A stretch of DNA of 64,000 nucleotides from Hydrogenovibrio marinus (GTDB lineage Bacteria; Pseudomonadota; Gammaproteobacteria; Thiomicrospirales; Thiomicrospiraceae). Positions 21,497 through 30,081 of this stretch are shown one piece after another. Location of the stretch: NCBI RefSeq assembly GCF_013340845.1, contig NZ_AP020335.1, forward strand, positions 1,426,001 to 1,490,000. Direction: 5' to 3'. Each line of letters starts with the position of its first letter. Positions within the stretch are counted from its first letter, which is position 1. A program made the position numbers and the translations under genes. The notes under the pieces were generated by a model. The model was not told where the DNA came from. It saw nothing but the letters and a program-made list of their open reading frames with translations, and did not search any database.

Positions 21497-21754
21497 TTAG
21501 TCAGGCCAAACGCGTTGGTTTGATCCCATAGGCTTAATAGTTTCAGACTCCTGCTCTGTCTTTGGTGCTGGCTTCGCAGCTGGCTTTGCGCTAGCTGTCT
21601 TAGCTGGCGCTCTTCGAGTGGTTGTCGTTGCTTTCGGAGCCGCAGTTGTTGTGGCCTTCTTTTCTTCCTCTGCCACTTTGTTTTCGGTTTGCGCCGTCTT
21701 CGCTCGGCGTACGCTGTTGGTTAGTTTTGATCCTGCTGTTTGTGTATTACTCAT
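21497..21754 (-). CDS. Small disordered basic protein, candidate McdB-like ParA partner
   Basis: An 85-residue, low-complexity protein rich in Ala, Lys and Thr (TTTAAPKATTTTRRAPAKTA region) with a polar N-terminus MSNTQTAGSKLTNSVRRAKT and an aromatic end SNQRVWPD. Its ATG overlaps the ParA stop (ATGA), so the two are made together. Alpha-carboxysome McdB proteins are small, disordered, encoded right after a ParA-type McdA and, as I recall, carry an invariant C-terminal Trp; the Trp third from the end fits. Alternatives are another ParA adaptor or a histone-H1-like protein. Confidence 0.6.
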   Translation of the reverse strand: MSNTQTAGSKLTNSVRRAKTAQTENKVAEEEKKATTTAAPKATTTTRRAPAKTASAKPAAKPAPKTEQESETIKPMGSNQRVWPD

Positions 21755-22383
21755 AATACCTCCTCAATAATTTCATCGACTTCTTTGGCTGCCGCTGCAC
21801 CTGTCTTACCGACACAGTAGACACTCGCGCCATCCACTGCCGCATTACGATAAATCGCTCTGCGACGAATACCGCCTTTCAATGCTGGAATATCAAACTC
21901 TCCCAGTGCTTGCTTCATCGCATTCGACAATGCACTACGTGGTTCCAACTGATTGACCACGATAAACGGCTTCAACGCACGGTTTTGCATCTTAGCTTGC
22001 TCAATAGCTTCAACCAAACGGATACTCGCCCATAAGTCCACTGGTGATGGCAATACCGGTATCAAAATCACATCCGATACTTTCATTGCCATTTGCATCA
22101 CGCCTGTTTCAAGTGTTGGCGGGCAATCAATGACCACAAAGTCATAATCCTGTGCGAAACGTTTTACTTCAGTCGCCAAATTACCGCCAACTCGAATCAC
22201 CGAGACCGGAAATAATCTGTCTTCCGGTGCCAGGCTGCTCCATTGTCCCGCTGAACCTTGTGGATCGGCATCAATAACTAGGGCTCTTCCGCGTTTGGCC
22301 AGACCTGCGGCAAAGTTCATACTCAAGGTGGTTTTGCCAGTTCCCCCTTTTTGGTTGGCGATCGAAAAAATACGTGCTGGCAT
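21751..22383 (-). CDS. ParA/MinD-family ATPase, candidate McdA
   Basis: A 210-residue ATPase with deviant Walker A NQKGGTGKTTLSMNFAAGLA at the N-terminus, Walker A' region VIDADPQGSAGQWS and Walker B DYDFVVIDCPPTLETGV, ending shortly after IPALKGGIRRRAIYRNAAVDG. It has no N-terminal HTH and no ParB or parS nearby, so it is not a chromosome partitioner. Such orphan ParAs position cargos such as carboxysomes, chemoreceptor arrays or flagella by ATP-dependent nucleoid binding. Co-translation with the disordered protein supports an McdAB-like pair. Confidence 0.85.
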   Translation of the reverse strand: MPARIFSIANQKGGTGKTTLSMNFAAGLAKRGRALVIDADPQGSAGQWSSLAPEDRLFPVSVIRVGGNLATEVKRFAQDYDFVVIDCPPTLETGVMQMAMKVSDVILIPVLPSPVDLWASIRLVEAIEQAKMQNRALKPFIVVNQLEPRSALSNAMKQALGEFDIPALKGGIRRRAIYRNAAVDGASVYCVGKTGAAAAKEVDEIIEEVL

Positions 22384-24479: not shown

Positions 24480-25094
24480 TTAAGAAGCAATACCCAGCAA
24501 CTCAACTTCAAAAACCAAAGTTTGGTAAGGCCCGATTGCGCCACTAGAACCTTGCTCACCATACGCCAAATCGTAAGGGATTGTCAGACGCCATTTTGAA
24601 CCCACTGGCATCAATTGCAATGCTTCTGTCCAACCGGCAATCACGCGATTCACAGGGAACTCCGCTGGTTGACCACGCTCTACCGAGCTGTCGAAAACCG
24701 TACCGTCAACCAACGTGCCGTGGTAGTGAGTGGAAACCACAGAATCCGCCTTAGGTTTTTCGCCATTGCCTTCAACTAGAATCTCATATTGAAGACCGGA
24801 TTCCAGTACCACGACATTGTCTTTTTTAGCGTTTTCCATCAAGAAGGCTTCCCCTTCTGCTGCAGCTTCTTTCGCTTTCTCAGCTTGCTTTGCCATCATC
24901 ACATCATTGATTTCCTGGAAAGCATCTTGCATAGCCGCTTGGTCGATTGGGCTTGCTTTACCGCTAAGCGTATCAATCAAACCTTGCGCCATTGCTTCGG
25001 CATTCAAACCATCAAACGGATCTGCCACCAACTGGTCGCCAAACTGACGCCCTAATGTATAACTCACAATATCTGCAGAAGAAGTATAAGACAT
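24480..25094 (-). CDS. FKBP-type peptidyl-prolyl isomerase (FklB/FkpA-like)
   Basis: A 204-residue isomerase. An N-terminal helical dimerisation domain (about 1-85: SYTLGRQFGDQLV and MAQGLIDTLSGK) is joined by a charged helix to the FKBP domain (about 95-204), with DSVVSTHYHGTLVDGTVFDS, GWTEALQLMPVGSKWRLTIP and LAYGEQG. No signal peptide is visible, which favours a cytoplasmic FklB-like protein over periplasmic FkpA. The ATG at 25094 is preferred; a TTG five codons upstream is the alternative. Confidence 0.9.
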   Translation of the reverse strand: MSYTSSADIVSYTLGRQFGDQLVADPFDGLNAEAMAQGLIDTLSGKASPIDQAAMQDAFQEINDVMMAKQAEKAKEAAAEGEAFLMENAKKDNVVVLESGLQYEILVEGNGEKPKADSVVSTHYHGTLVDGTVFDSSVERGQPAEFPVNRVIAGWTEALQLMPVGSKWRLTIPYDLAYGEQGSSGAIGPYQTLVFEVELLGIAS

Positions 25095-25184
25095 AATTTC
25101 ACTACTCAATCAATTCAAAAGAGGCGTAGCTTAACATAGTTTTACCGACTTTTTTCGGGTTTGGTCCACTCAAATAAAGGCATA

Positions 25185-25220
25185 AAAAACCGCCAGGTTG
25201 GGGGGGCGCATGGCGGTTTT
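25185..25220 (-). terminator. Terminator overlapping a divergent reverse copy of the dispersed repeat
   Basis: AAAAACCGCCAGGTTGGGG (25185-25203) is a reverse-oriented repeat copy with three changes. AAAACCGCCA (25186-25195) pairs with TGGCGGTTTT (25211-25220), so the changed bases are the ones that complete a hairpin. It lies 28 bp after the stop of the dUTPase gene. Confidence 0.8.
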
Positions 25221-25248
25221 ATTTAAAGCTTTAATTCGCTATAAGGTG

Positions 25249-25938
25249 CTAAGCAAGCTGGGAATAGGTTTCCTTCAAACTGATATAAAGTTCATCACCG
25301 GAAAAGATCGTCATGCGCTCGATAATCTCGAACATCACTACGTTGTCTTCTTTACCATCCCACACTTTGACATAAGTGCCTTCTTTGTAGCCATGGTCTT
25401 GGCGAAATTTATTTAAAACATTCTTCGCCATATAGATTTGGTACAACTGATCAAACTCAAGCTCGGCAACCTGGCAAGACCTGAAGAATGTCACTGTGAG
25501 TGCCGACAGGTAGCTGTCTGTCACTTGTGTTTTAATCAGCGCTTTTGCCATCATCGCTTCATGAACCTGTACTTGGATAATAACAGACAAATCTTTTAGC
25601 TTTTCGTCATCGCTGGATTCATAAGCTTTGTTCAGGATATCTGCCGCGTCATCCTTACTGAAGTTTTCCAACGCCAAACTCAGTAGAAAATGCCAGATAT
25701 CCACCAACTCGACACGGACATTTTCCCTATCGGTTGTCGCATCAACACTCTTCCAGTGTTTCCATGGGTAACTGTCTATCAGCTCAGCGGTTTCCATCAC
25801 TATGCAGCGTCGCCAATCAATCACTTTACCTAGTGCCGTCTTACCACTACGCCAGTTTGCACCGTTTGTCATTTCATTCAATGCAGCTTGCATTGAAAGC
25901 ATTTCATTAATCGCATTGGCTGATTTTGAGTTAGACAT
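25249..25938 (-). CDS. All-alpha dUTP diphosphatase (dUTPase_2, MazG-like)
   Basis: A 229-residue enzyme that hydrolyses dUTP to dUMP. The family fingerprint is MLSMQAALNEMTNGANWRSG, WRRCIVMETAELIDSYPWKHWK (E-x-x-E half-site) and VELVDIWHFLLSLAL (E-x-x-D half-site), which bind Mg2+. No trimeric beta-type dut is seen in this window, and this dimeric type can supply the function alone. It faces the hydrogenase gene divergently. Confidence 0.9.
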   Translation of the reverse strand: MSNSKSANAINEMLSMQAALNEMTNGANWRSGKTALGKVIDWRRCIVMETAELIDSYPWKHWKSVDATTDRENVRVELVDIWHFLLSLALENFSKDDAADILNKAYESSDDEKLKDLSVIIQVQVHEAMMAKALIKTQVTDSYLSALTVTFFRSCQVAELEFDQLYQIYMAKNVLNKFRQDHGYKEGTYVKVWDGKEDNVVMFEIIERMTIFSGDELYISLKETYSQLA

Positions 25939-26103
25939 AAAATTCCATTTACTTAAATTAAAATCGTAAAGAGATAATACCAGTTCAAATTTATTTTCAA
26001 CACTGTTTCATCCCCTAAAATTCTTTCTAATTTACATTGAATTATGTGATACTCAACAAAGAGTGAGTCACTACTGTGCCTTGGACATCATCAGGAGGAG
26101 CAT

Positions 26104-28176
26104 ATGATTGAGGTGACCGTTAATGGTAGAAAGACCGAAGTAGAAGAAGGTACTACGTTGCTGGAGGCAGCGAGAGCCGTCGGTGTTCACATTCCAACAC
26201 TCTGTTACTACCCTCGCTTACCCTCTCACGCCGTATGCCGACTCTGCCTGGTTAACGTCAGTAGTGAAAAGAAACCTCAACCTGCCTGCAAAACCACCGT
26301 CAAAGATGGCGATATCGTCGAAACCGATACCCAAGAATTAATCGAATACCGCAAAACTGATGCGCAATGGTTATTGGCTCGCCACCCAAATGATTGCATT
26401 CGTTGTGAAGTCAATGGCTCATGCCAGTTTCAAAACTTCGTCAGCGAGTACCAACTGGAAGACTGTTGGGAAAAATTGCCCCGAGGTTCGGAAGAACATC
26501 CAGAACATCAACTCTCCGACCACACTTCACCCAGTATTTGGCGGGACATTTCAAAATGCGTCGAGTGTGGTTTATGTGCAGATGCCTGTGGCGAAGCTGG
26601 TCAACAGCAAAACATCATCGGCTTTGCGGAGAACAGTTCTGGGCGAGTGCCTGTCACGGTTTTCGATAAACCGCTTTCGGAAACCAAATGTATCTCTTGC
26701 GGGCAATGCACACTCGTTTGCCCTGTCGGCGCTTTAATTGAAGCACCGCACTGGCATGATGTGATTCATACACTAGATGCTCACAGACATATTTCCGCCG
26801 TACAAGTTGCCCCTGCAACACGTGTTGCCATCGGCGAAGAGTTTGGCATGAACCCAGGCACAATCAGTACCGGGCGGATGATAAATGCCCTGAGACAACT
26901 TGGGTTCGATTACGTGTTCGACACCAACTTTGCCGCAGACCTGACCATTATGGAAGAAGGCACCGAGTTTCTTTCTCGCCTGAAAGCACAGAAAAACCTG
27001 CCCTTGTTTACCTCCTGTTGCCCCGGATGGGTGAACTGGGTGGAGCTGAATCGCCCAGACTTGATTCCACATTTAAGTACCACCAAATCCCCACAACAAA
27101 TGCATGGTGCCCTCACCAAACGCGGTGCCTTCGCCCGCTCACTTGGCGCTGAATTTGAGTCGGGTAAAACCGAACCTTATGTGGTGAGTGTCATGCCTTG
27201 TACCGCCAAAAAAGATGAAGCTGTTCGCCCTGGAACGTCTGGAGATATTGACCGCGTTTTGACCACCCGAGAACTCGCCAGAATGATCAAGGCTCGTGGT
27301 ATTGCTTTCAGCGCATTACCGGATGACGGTAAGTTCGACAATCCACTAGGGGAAAGCACTGGAGCCGCACAAATCTTTGGTGCATCGGGTGGCGTGATGG
27401 AAGCTGTGGTGCGAACCGCTACCCACTTGATTGACAAGGAAAACACGCTTCCTCTGGAATGGGAGCAACTTCGCGGCGTCAACACCGGCGTAAAAACCGC
27501 CGAGGTGCCTGGCATCGGCAAGATTGCCATTTGCAATGGCATAGCGGCAGCACAACGATTGTTATCAAATGATGACTGGCGAAAAAAATATGTCGCCATT
27601 GAGGTCATGGCTTGTGTAGGTGGATGCTTAGGTGGTGGTGGCGAACCGAAGTCCATGGATCCAAAAGTCCTAGAGAAACGTATGCATGCCATTTACGAAA
27701 TCGACAAAAACTCCACACGCCGACGTTCTTACGAAAACCAAGACGTACAAAAGCTTTACGAAACGGAATTAGAGAAGCCCAACTCTGAAAAGGCGCATCA
27801 CTTGTTACACACGCATTATGCGCCTCGAGCTTCCAAACGTCTTCTGCTGATGCAATTCCTGGATTGTGTGGATAGACGAGATGCTGAAGAAATTGCCAAA
27901 CTGCTCCATCCGGATGCCATCTGGTCAACAGCCTCTCCTTTTGGCGATGTGCAGGGCATATCAAACATCAAAGCGTTGATTACAGGCAAACTCCCACCAC
28001 GTCAGTATGGTTCTAAGTATGTCCGTCATCAAATGGCATCGGCTGCGGATATTGAAGATTTAACGGTAATAACCCCTACGGGTGAACGTTGTCGCTTTAC
28101 GCTTGAGGTTGATACTCAACAGCATGGCAACTCTTCAAGAATGGTGATTAAAAAACTGGTCAGAGAAGTTTTGTAA
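26104..28176 (+). CDS. hydA: Modular [FeFe]-hydrogenase with extra C-terminal NTF2-like domain
   Basis: A 690-residue single-subunit hydrogenase; no signal peptide, so cytoplasmic. Cluster ligands in order: plant-type [2Fe-2S] Cys34, 45, 48, 62; His94/Cys98/101/107 for the His-ligated [4Fe-4S]; two ferredoxin clusters (Cys152-162 and Cys196-206); H-cluster motifs L1 TSCCPGW (Cys305 proton-relay, Cys306 ligand), L2 MPCTAKK (Met364, Cys366), L3 MACVGGC (Met502, Cys504, Cys508). L3 ends GGGGEP where GGGQP is usual. The small-subunit-like segment SEKAHHLLHTHYAPR follows (561-575), then about 115 residues resembling a SnoaL/NTF2 fold (KRLLLMQFLDCVDRRDAEEI onward). The AGGAGG site is strong. Maturases hydEFG are not in the window. 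Confidence 0.95.
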   Translation: MIEVTVNGRKTEVEEGTTLLEAARAVGVHIPTLCYYPRLPSHAVCRLCLVNVSSEKKPQPACKTTVKDGDIVETDTQELIEYRKTDAQWLLARHPNDCIRCEVNGSCQFQNFVSEYQLEDCWEKLPRGSEEHPEHQLSDHTSPSIWRDISKCVECGLCADACGEAGQQQNIIGFAENSSGRVPVTVFDKPLSETKCISCGQCTLVCPVGALIEAPHWHDVIHTLDAHRHISAVQVAPATRVAIGEEFGMNPGTISTGRMINALRQLGFDYVFDTNFAADLTIMEEGTEFLSRLKAQKNLPLFTSCCPGWVNWVELNRPDLIPHLSTTKSPQQMHGALTKRGAFARSLGAEFESGKTEPYVVSVMPCTAKKDEAVRPGTSGDIDRVLTTRELARMIKARGIAFSALPDDGKFDNPLGESTGAAQIFGASGGVMEAVVRTATHLIDKENTLPLEWEQLRGVNTGVKTAEVPGIGKIAICNGIAAAQRLLSNDDWRKKYVAIEVMACVGGCLGGGGEPKSMDPKVLEKRMHAIYEIDKNSTRRRSYENQDVQKLYETELEKPNSEKAHHLLHTHYAPRASKRLLLMQFLDCVDRRDAEEIAKLLHPDAIWSTASPFGDVQGISNIKALITGKLPPRQYGSKYVRHQMASAADIEDLTVITPTGERCRFTLEVDTQQHGNSSRMVIKKLVREVL

Positions 28177-28188
28177 AACTTGGTTAAG

Positions 28189-28239
28189 ACTCAAGCTGTG
28201 TAAACTGCAACAAGGTCGCTCTTTATTTTTACAGCTTGA
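28189..28239. terminator. Possible terminator after the hydrogenase gene
   Basis: CAAGCTGTGTAAA and TTTTACAGCTTG form a long stem with one bulge around a roughly 24-base loop, just after the hydrogenase stop and before the end of the convergent gene. The large loop makes it uncertain. Confidence 0.35.
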
Positions 28240-28264
28240 GATATAGATAGATTTGAAACTGAGA

Positions 28265-28600
28265 TTACCAATCGCTCGCAGGCGCTGAGCGGACTAAATG
28301 CTGGTCAATCAAGGTTAGTGCAAACTTCTCATCAAACTCAGTGTGCCCAATATCATCAATCCACTCCGGGTTGCTAAACCCGCCATAAGCATCGGGTTCA
28401 TAAAACGCAAAGCCGACTTTATATTCATCGCTCATGCGGGCAAACATCATGACCAGCTTTTTGCCGTTTTGCTTGTTCTTGATCTCACAGGTATTATTGT
28501 CGTTTTTCTGAAAAACGATTTCCACAGTATCATCCTGTTTTAAATAGGCTTCAACTGCCGATTGAACCGTGATATATAACTCTTCGTAATTTTGAATCAC
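28265..28600 (-). CDS. Hypothetical protein
   Basis: A 111-residue soluble protein, acidic, with mixed alpha/beta character (YEELYITVQSAVEAYLKQDD at the N-terminus, KKLVMMFARMSDEYKVGFAF in the middle). No signal peptide, membrane helix or recognisable motif. It lies opposite the hydrogenase gene and is divergent from the helicase pair. I do not recognise the family. Confidence 0.6.
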   Translation of the reverse strand: MIQNYEELYITVQSAVEAYLKQDDTVEIVFQKNDNNTCEIKNKQNGKKLVMMFARMSDEYKVGFAFYEPDAYGGFSNPEWIDDIGHTEFDEKFALTLIDQHLVRSAPASDW

Positions 28601-28717
28601 TTTGTTTCTCCAATTTTTTCAGAAGATTCTACCTTAAATCACGGTTTCCGACGAATTTTGAATTGTTATCATAATCCGCTCACCACGGGAAATGAGTCAA
28701 TGAATCCCTCTTTCTTC

Positions 28718-28736
28718 CCCCAACCTGGTAGATTTT
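28718..28736 (+). repeat. Dispersed 19-bp repeat, exact consensus
   Basis: CCCCAACCTGGTAGATTTT on the + strand. This copy is in a divergent promoter gap (hypothetical gene / rhlE), unlike the others. Confidence 0.92.
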
Positions 28737-28887
28737 TTTCACTATTTTCGATTTATCTTGGCGTTTGGGTTGAGCTTTCCGACATTTATGTGCGTAATGC
28801 TTTATAATTCAACGGCATCTCTCCTAATTCACCATTCCAGTTTCAGAAGCCTACCCGCTGCAATTTATTCGACCGATGAGGATTTCT

Positions 28888-30081
28888 ATGTCATTTTCAC
28901 AACTTGGATTGTCTGCTCCGATAGTTAAAGCGGTTACCGAGCTTGGTTATGACACACCTACTGAAATCCAGCAACAGGCGATTCCAGTTATTTTGTCTGG
29001 CAAGGATCTCATGGCGGCAGCACAGACTGGAACAGGTAAAACTGCCAGTTTCGTATTGCCTTTGCTGGAAAAGCTCACCGCGTTTGATGCTGTTCGTGGT
29101 CGCTCCATCCGCGCACTTATCCTTGCGCCGACGCGTGAGCTGGCTGTGCAGGTTGAGAAAAATATCGTGGATTACGCCAAGCACTTGAACCTGAGTTCAT
29201 TGGTGGTTTACGGTGGTACGGATTTAGAGCCGCAAAAGCAGCGTCTGTTGCAAGGTGTTGATTTATTGGTGGCAACACCAGGAAGATTGCTGGACTTGGC
29301 GTATCAACGCGCCCTGTTCTTTGATGACTTGGAATTTCTGGTTTTAGATGAAGCCGACAGAATGCTCGACATGGGCTTTATTGATGACATCAATAAAATC
29401 ATCGACCGTTTGCCGCTTAACCGCCAAAGCCTATTGTTTTCCGCCACGCTGACAGATGATGTACGTTATCTTGCCGACACGGTTTCCCATAGTGCCGTCG
29501 AAATCTCGGTTTCGCCCGAAACCAAAGCGGCTCCGAAGATAAATCAATGGTTGGTTACGGTCGACAAAGATACTAAGTCCGCACTACTGAGCCATTTGAT
29601 TAATGAACAACACTGGGATCAGGCACTGATTTTCGTTGAGAAAAAACACTCCGCCGCCAAACTCGTCGAACAGCTTGGCAAGCGAGGCATTATTGCTGAC
29701 TCCATCCATAGCGGTAGAAGTCAGGCGATGCGAGAACAGGTTTTGTCCGACTTCAAATCCGGCAAACTGAAATATTTGATTGCCACCGGCATTGCTGCCC
29801 GTGGTATTGATATAAATAACCTCAGCCGCGTAGTGAACTACGATTTACCTTATCCGGCTGAAGAATACATCCACCGCATCGGCCGTACAGGTAGAGCCGG
29901 TGCCACAGGCGAAGCCATCTCTCTAGTATCGAAAGATGACTTCAAAAACCTTTGCGCCATTGAAAGCTTATTGGGGCACCTTATCCAACGTATAGAAATC
30001 GAAGGCTTTCCGGTCAAAAAGACCGTCCCCATTTCGATTCTGAATTATCAACCGAAAAATAAAACACAAAATAAAAGATAG
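28888..30081 (+). CDS. DEAD-box RNA helicase, RhlE type (copy 1)
   Basis: An RNA helicase of about 397 residues. Visible are the Q motif (TPTEIQQQAIP), Walker [30 protein letters not shown], the DEAD box [16 protein letters not shown] (FSATLTDD), then helicase C motifs [12 protein letters not shown] and [10 protein letters not shown]. The ATG at 28888 follows GAGGATTT. It lacks the basic C-terminal extension of its neighbour. The next gene is a paralogue starting 66 bp downstream. Confidence 0.93.
   Translation: MSFSQLGLSAPIVKAVTELGYDTPTEIQQQAIPVILSGKDLMAAAQTGTGKTASFVLPLLEKLTAFDAVRGRSIRALILAPTRELAVQVEKNIVDYAKHLNLSSLVVYGGTDLEPQKQRLLQGVDLLVATPGRLLDLAYQRALFFDDLEFLVLDEADRMLDMGFIDDINKIIDRLPLNRQSLLFSATLTDDVRYLADTVSHSAVEISVSPETKAAPKINQWLVTVDKDTKSALLSHLINEQHWDQALIFVEKKHSAAKLVEQLGKRGIIADSIHSGRSQAMREQVLSDFKSGKLKYLIATGIAARGIDINNLSRVVNYDLPYPAEEYIHRIGRTGRAGATGEAISLVSKDDFKNLCAIESLLGHLIQRIEIEGFPVKKTVPISILNYQPKNKTQNKR

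Follow-up and report, generated by a model that had tools for sequence, protein, structure and literature searches.

The window under study, a stretch of 64,000 nucleotides from Hydrogenovibrio marinus, contains on its forward strand a single, uninterrupted open reading frame of 690 aa (26104-28176), with a Shine-Dalgarno-like AGGAGG (26093-26098, forward strand) before its ATG, and the ORF, Pfam and TIGR02512 together describe its product as a group-A [FeFe]-hydrogenase homologue with a C-terminal NTF2-like domain. All features within the gene lie on the same strand. Pfam matches and alignment place at the N-terminus a [2Fe-2S] ferredoxin domain (Fer2_4, residues 1-76, 26104-26331; C34, C45, C48, C62), followed by a His-Cys3 [4Fe-4S] site (NADH-G_4Fe-4S_3, residues 83-119, 26350-26460; H94, C98, C101, C107) and a ferredoxin dicluster binding two [4Fe-4S] clusters (residues 150-211, 26551-26736; C152, C155, C158, C162, C196, C199, C202, C206). 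The H-domain (PF02906, Fe_hyd_lg_C; residues 232-515, 26797-27648; E 5.9e-83 in the Pfam scan of the window protein) contains, by translation and alignment, the L1 motif TSCCPGW (residues 303-309, 27010-27030), the L2 motif MPCTAKKDE (residues 364-372, 27193-27219) and the L3 motif EVMACVGGCLGGGGEP (residues 500-515, 27601-27648), the last reading MACVGGCLGGGGEP and having E514 where most of the unfused relatives seen have Q. A Fe_hyd_SSU region identified by Pfam (residues 521-575, 27664-27828) precedes the NTF2-like tail. The initial annotation had proposed intact H-cluster motifs and four accessory cluster sites, and both proposals are borne out by the open frame, the three motifs, the Pfam domains and the conserved ligands. 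The protein is certainly homologous to group A; it passes TIGR02512 (438 bits vs a cut-off of 406), but fails the top-scoring subfamily model, NF040763 (672 bits vs a cut-off of 765). The fused gene is the sole PF02906 match in its own genome, a single contig of 2.49 Mb rated 100% complete. Elsewhere in the window, a chromosomal stretch on the reverse strand (21497-22383) holds a ParA-like ATPase gene and, after it, an Ala/Thr-rich ORF of 85 aa; judged from the translations alone, the two may act as a pair in partition or positioning.

The tail was assigned to the NTF2/SnoaL-like group by Pfam, alignment and structural modelling (residues 578-690, 27835-28173). When the C-terminus was scanned alone, SnoaL_2, DUF4440 and SnoaL_4 matched from about residue 582, each just below the Pfam cut-off (E 1.7e-5 to 8.4e-5), and by sequence its similarity to solved structures is weak, with a best PDB match of E 0.15. 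An AlphaFold model of residues 562-690, built with 68 family members aligned, reached pLDDT 89 and pTM 0.84; the full-length model was poor (pLDDT 52.7, 16 rows). The modelled tail adopts the alpha+beta cone fold of the NTF2-like superfamily, and in Foldseek and VIA comparisons resembles ketosteroid-isomerase, SnoaL-like, LinA and CaMKII-hub folds, with VIA Z-scores of 10.6-12.3 and rmsd of 2.1-3.2 over 99-115 residues among the 50 matches listed. The structure prediction thus agrees with the NTF2-like tail that had been suggested at the outset. As the tail is present in full-length homologues and its model matches NTF2-like folds, it is not a product of chance. Nine positions are invariant in the family (D587, D590, R592, W607, T609, R641, H642, F665, R687), and the conservation of the polar ones (D587, D590, R592, W607, R641, H642 and R687) suggests that the tail may form a working pocket or interface.

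The fusion had been flagged as unusual; it is real but not a one-off, being the mark of a family that spans several proteobacterial classes. A search of 62 genomes from the window's own family gave 17 carriers: 15 with a full-length copy (the present gene included), one whose copy is truncated where its contig stops (G057) and one whose copy is fragmented and has an internal TAG (G058). The other 14 full-length copies are 75-87% identical to the window protein and keep the tail. A wider scan with a C-terminal profile (two C-terminal peptide patterns), covering 84,980 species at one genome per species and possibly leaving out records very near the window, returned 61 loci, many of them in MAGs, all labelled Pseudomonadota and distributed over several classes. 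Since two C-terminal patterns would recover close relatives only, this distribution leaves room for the fusion outside Pseudomonadota. Carriers include Thioclava, Alloyangia, Salipiger, Jannaschia, Janthinobacterium, Pseudoduganella, Aquabacterium, Paraburkholderia, Gallionella, Nitrosomonas and Mariprofundus, as well as Thiomicrorhabdus chilensis. In an even sample of 398 Pseudomonadota genomes, four had PF02906 and three of these were fused; a sample of 369 genomes from the window's class gave eight, again with three fused (own genome included in both). In a rapidly built, midpoint-rooted tree, where the unfused rows number only 4 and are long-branched, the 65 fused rows form one clade on a long stem (SH-aLRT 100). 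Spread on plasmids was considered and set aside, the nine matching plasmid records all falling below 60% identity and stopping at query residue 572-576. In the open-access literature searched, no description was found of the fusion or of its link to absent maturases.

Conservation was assessed in a 70-row alignment of the family, with counts covering the rows that reach each position. Wherever a row reaches an Fe-S ligand, that ligand is conserved, including the H-cluster ligands C306, C366, C504 and C508 of L1-L3 (among them the bridging cysteine), and invariant positions are found in every domain. Such intact ligands and domains, together with the fact that 54 of the 61 loci hold a complete copy (687-702 aa), speak against a relic or decaying gene that has lost its function, a very improbable reading for which the broken gene of G058 is the one example. 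In that genome (locus L018, contig 69) the fused gene lies in pieces over contigs, has an internal TAG and reads GGGSEP at L3, which may reflect a decaying copy or an assembly error.

The active site was compared with CpI, the hydrogenase of Clostridium pasteurianum, using the CpI numbering of the pocket and proton-path sites. The pocket residues A230, P231, C299, S323, P324, M353, K358, F417, M497 and C503 are conserved in all rows reaching them, the bridging cysteine, CN-contacting lysine and both methionines being kept in 69/69 rows. Along the proton path, E279, E282 and R286 are kept in 68/68, as is the free cysteine, and S319 in 67/68; Q325 is kept in 66/68. S232 is replaced by A in 67/67 rows and I268 by T in 67/68. 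In the window protein, the counterparts are the free cysteine C305, K369, M364 and M502, with E285, E288, R292 and S325 along the proton path. Of the 16 sites listed for the [2Fe]H pocket and the proton path, 15 show an invariance of 98% or more, a level reached by 48% of H-domain positions (binomial 1.6e-4); the comparison is to be read knowing that the 16 sites were our own choice, mapped via the CpI alignment, and that buried sites are conserved anyway. The altered L3 seen in the window gene also holds across the family, the glutamine of GGGQP being glutamate in 69/69 fused rows, whereas ten unfused sequences have Q in eight cases and M in two. It is possible that these proteins are genuine hydrogenases with a complete H-cluster assembled without HydE, HydF and HydG, the NTF2 domain perhaps shielding the site from O2 or assisting assembly, a reading that we regard as the main rival of the model favoured below, and as less likely than it. 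The kept pocket provides the strongest argument for such a route, to which may be added the group-A model score above its cut-off and the 66-82% identity to the window protein among copies from several classes in the wide scan, an indication that the gene is under strong constraint.

However, the CO, CN and dithiolate bridge of such a cluster would need a novel source, and no conserved neighbour encodes one. The H-cluster is understood to need HydE, HydF and HydG (for example PMC12752695). Above cut-off, HydG was found in none of 67 distinct carriers (searched as sets of 17 and 49 plus one further genome, duplicates merged), HydE in none of 66, and the HydF dimer domain in none of 66 distinct carriers. 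The weak matches below cut-off, namely one for HydG (19.8 bits) and those for HydE in 15 of 66 carriers (at most 42.3 bits), are tentatively read as other radical-SAM proteins. The complete H. marinus genome yielded no HydG match at E 0.001, no HydE match, and with the HydF model partial GTPase-domain matches alone, all below cut-off; the absence of maturases, initially remarked for the vicinity of the gene, thus extends to the whole genome. The same models are capable of detection, as HydG was found in 5 of 6 genomes with unfused relatives (368-541 bits) and HydF in G400, the single unfused genome given that search. Many carriers are MAGs of unstated completeness, which tempers the argument from absence, although the near-complete family genomes agree. 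The Hyp proteins, which belong to the other known route to Fe-CO/CN units, cannot be a general source and were rejected: HypD, whose search stands in for the whole Hyp route, was missing from 57 of 67 distinct carriers and present in 10, the present genome among them. By this criterion, 57 of the 67 lack both known routes to CO and CN bound to iron. In a separate case, a 1.0 Mb gammaproteobacterial assembly of 96% completeness (G804, locus L116) holds an unfused homologue and gave no HydG match; it may represent a reduced genome, a missing contig or another maturase-free case, and the association of unfused genes with HydG is thus not a perfect rule.

Maturases or finished cofactor might instead be supplied by neighbouring organisms, or the maturases might be too divergent for the models. 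Nothing direct points this way beyond the weak sub-cut-off matches already described, and free-living bacteria would lack a steady external source; nor does a genome with no HydG match at E 0.001 resemble the unfused genomes with their 368-541 bits, and we regard this explanation as improbable. What the data do establish is a highly conserved set of stand-alone group-A homologues, forming one clade, with a CpI-type cluster chain and an NTF2-like domain and without detected HydE, HydF or HydG. Hydrogenase function is a candidate assignment for the family, drawn from homology, and the HydE, HydF and HydG genes that membership of group A would entail in the genome were not found.

The surroundings of the gene were equally searched for partners, with neighbouring ORF calls made in this analysis. 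Among 61 loci plus the window, the gene itself apart, 7 of the 62 stretches was the most that any cluster reached, and this largest cluster was short-chain-dehydrogenase-like; clustering of the 210 proteins within two genes gave a largest cluster present in 5 loci; and Pfam, run on the 92 immediately adjacent proteins, found a commonest family with 4 matches. On these three comparisons, which showed no widely recurrent neighbour, an operon partner was rejected. Adjacent NuoE/NuoF-like genes, as expected of NADH-linked HydABC (A3/A6), were not found as a feature of the loci compared. In two MAGs (L048 and L050), a gene for a BFD-like [2Fe-2S] protein lies some 100 nt upstream in the same orientation, and its product is a possible electron partner there, not a general one. 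Upstream, an FNR-like site (TTGA-N6-TCAA) was present in 3 of 65 carriers, the window's gene not among them (shuffles: mean 0.36, maximum 3), and a sigma-54 site in 0 of 65. A leader ORF or riboswitch was likewise discarded, with no upstream ORF shared among 18 loci and no Rfam match in window positions 25000-29000. Directly 5' of the ATG, a stretch in the region of about 40 nt before the start codon, approximately CTCGGCAC-CGTTT-ATTAGCCGC, is shared by several of the 18 gamma- and betaproteobacterial loci aligned (L041, L046, L048, L051 and L058).

Published physiology bears on the same question. In PMC4744846, the proteins of H. marinus and of three further species, T. chilensis, T. kuenenii and T. 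pelophila, are assigned to group A1 after Greening et al. (2015), with Roseibacterium elongatum and Wenzhouxiangella marina as the closest annotated relatives; for T. kuenenii and T. pelophila the presence of such a protein follows that account. The paper also reports that none of these three species consumed H2 in culture, an observation that weighs against a genuine hydrogenase, although the tests described there concern consumption and not evolution of H2. The initial annotation had offered a sensor or a fermentative hydrogen outlet as possible roles. Neither finds support: no neighbour gene is conserved, an FNR-like site is present in 3 of 65 carriers, and no tested carrier has, above cut-off, the HydG, HydE or HydF dimer domain that the known route to an active H-cluster needs; the three cultures, moreover, consumed no H2.

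Taken as a whole, these observations allow a model, held with moderate confidence, in which the fused protein is a repurposed hydrogenase scaffold whose H-domain is free of a HydEFG-made [2Fe] unit and which is not a normal H2 enzyme. Electrons, probably supplied by ferredoxin as no gene for an NADH-oxidising subunit accompanies the fused gene, would enter by the N-terminal [2Fe-2S]/[4Fe-4S] chain and reach a [4Fe-4S] cluster of the H-domain. The adjoining pocket (C305, K369, M364, M502, E285, E288, R292, S325), holding no HydEFG-made [2Fe] unit, may then reduce or bind another small substrate with coupled proton delivery, while the NTF2 domain may bind a ligand or link subunits, thereby gating or feeding the pocket. 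The missing CO/CN machinery is the strongest argument for this repurposed scaffold over assembly by another route; the absence of a widely recurring partner gene, the T. chilensis cultures, the single clade and the uniform Q to E change in L3 are all consistent with it. However, the kept pocket is unexpected in a protein without a diiron unit, and substrate, ligand and partner are all hypothetical. A second, HydEFG-independent pathway in Proteobacteria, building an H-cluster or H-cluster-like diiron centre for the NTF2-fused family, is conceivable if rather unlikely. A large family with a full active site, spread over several proteobacterial classes and lacking detected HydE, HydF and HydG, either breaks the HydEFG rule, making its active site by a novel route, or represents a new enzyme with another function on the hydrogenase scaffold, and both are directly testable. 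Surveys that place such proteins among the group A1 hydrogenases (Greening et al., 2015, cited by PMC4744846) may overstate the H2 metabolism of these bacteria.

Several known systems provide points of comparison. Ketosteroid isomerase (KSI), LinA dehydrochlorinase, SnoaL-like proteins and the CaMKII hub have in common with approximately residues 574-690 their fold, the similarity being spread over several members with none specifically favoured. The catalytic positions of KSI, Tyr16 and Asp40, fall on F585 and T609 in a weak alignment (E 0.15) to a chain, 1e97, titled as Y16F, and KSI chemistry may not be kept. Nar1/IOP1, which act in Fe-S assembly in eukaryotes, offer a precedent for a hydrogenase-related protein that does not serve H2 turnover; PMC4967309 names Nar1. 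The fused family keeps L1-L3, the accessory clusters and the proton path, a set that Nar1 is not known to retain in full. Among solved structures, the closest relatives are the HydA subunits of NADH-linked HydABC (T. kivui, 8a6t; A. woodii, 7q4v; 'group A6' in NF040763), 8a6t matching the window protein over residues 1-576 (E 1.6e-148); in two annotated unfused relatives, however, the gene lies beside NuoE/NuoF-like subunit genes, and the fused family has no such recurrent neighbour. CpI needs HydEFG and reads GGGQP, and its match stops at residue 575, whereas the window protein continues into the NTF2 tail, reads GGGEP and comes without detected maturases. Nevertheless, CpI (PDB 4xdc; group A1, M3 type) and the window protein are both stand-alone and possess the same cluster chain and H-domain, aligned over residues 4-575 (E 4.5e-111).
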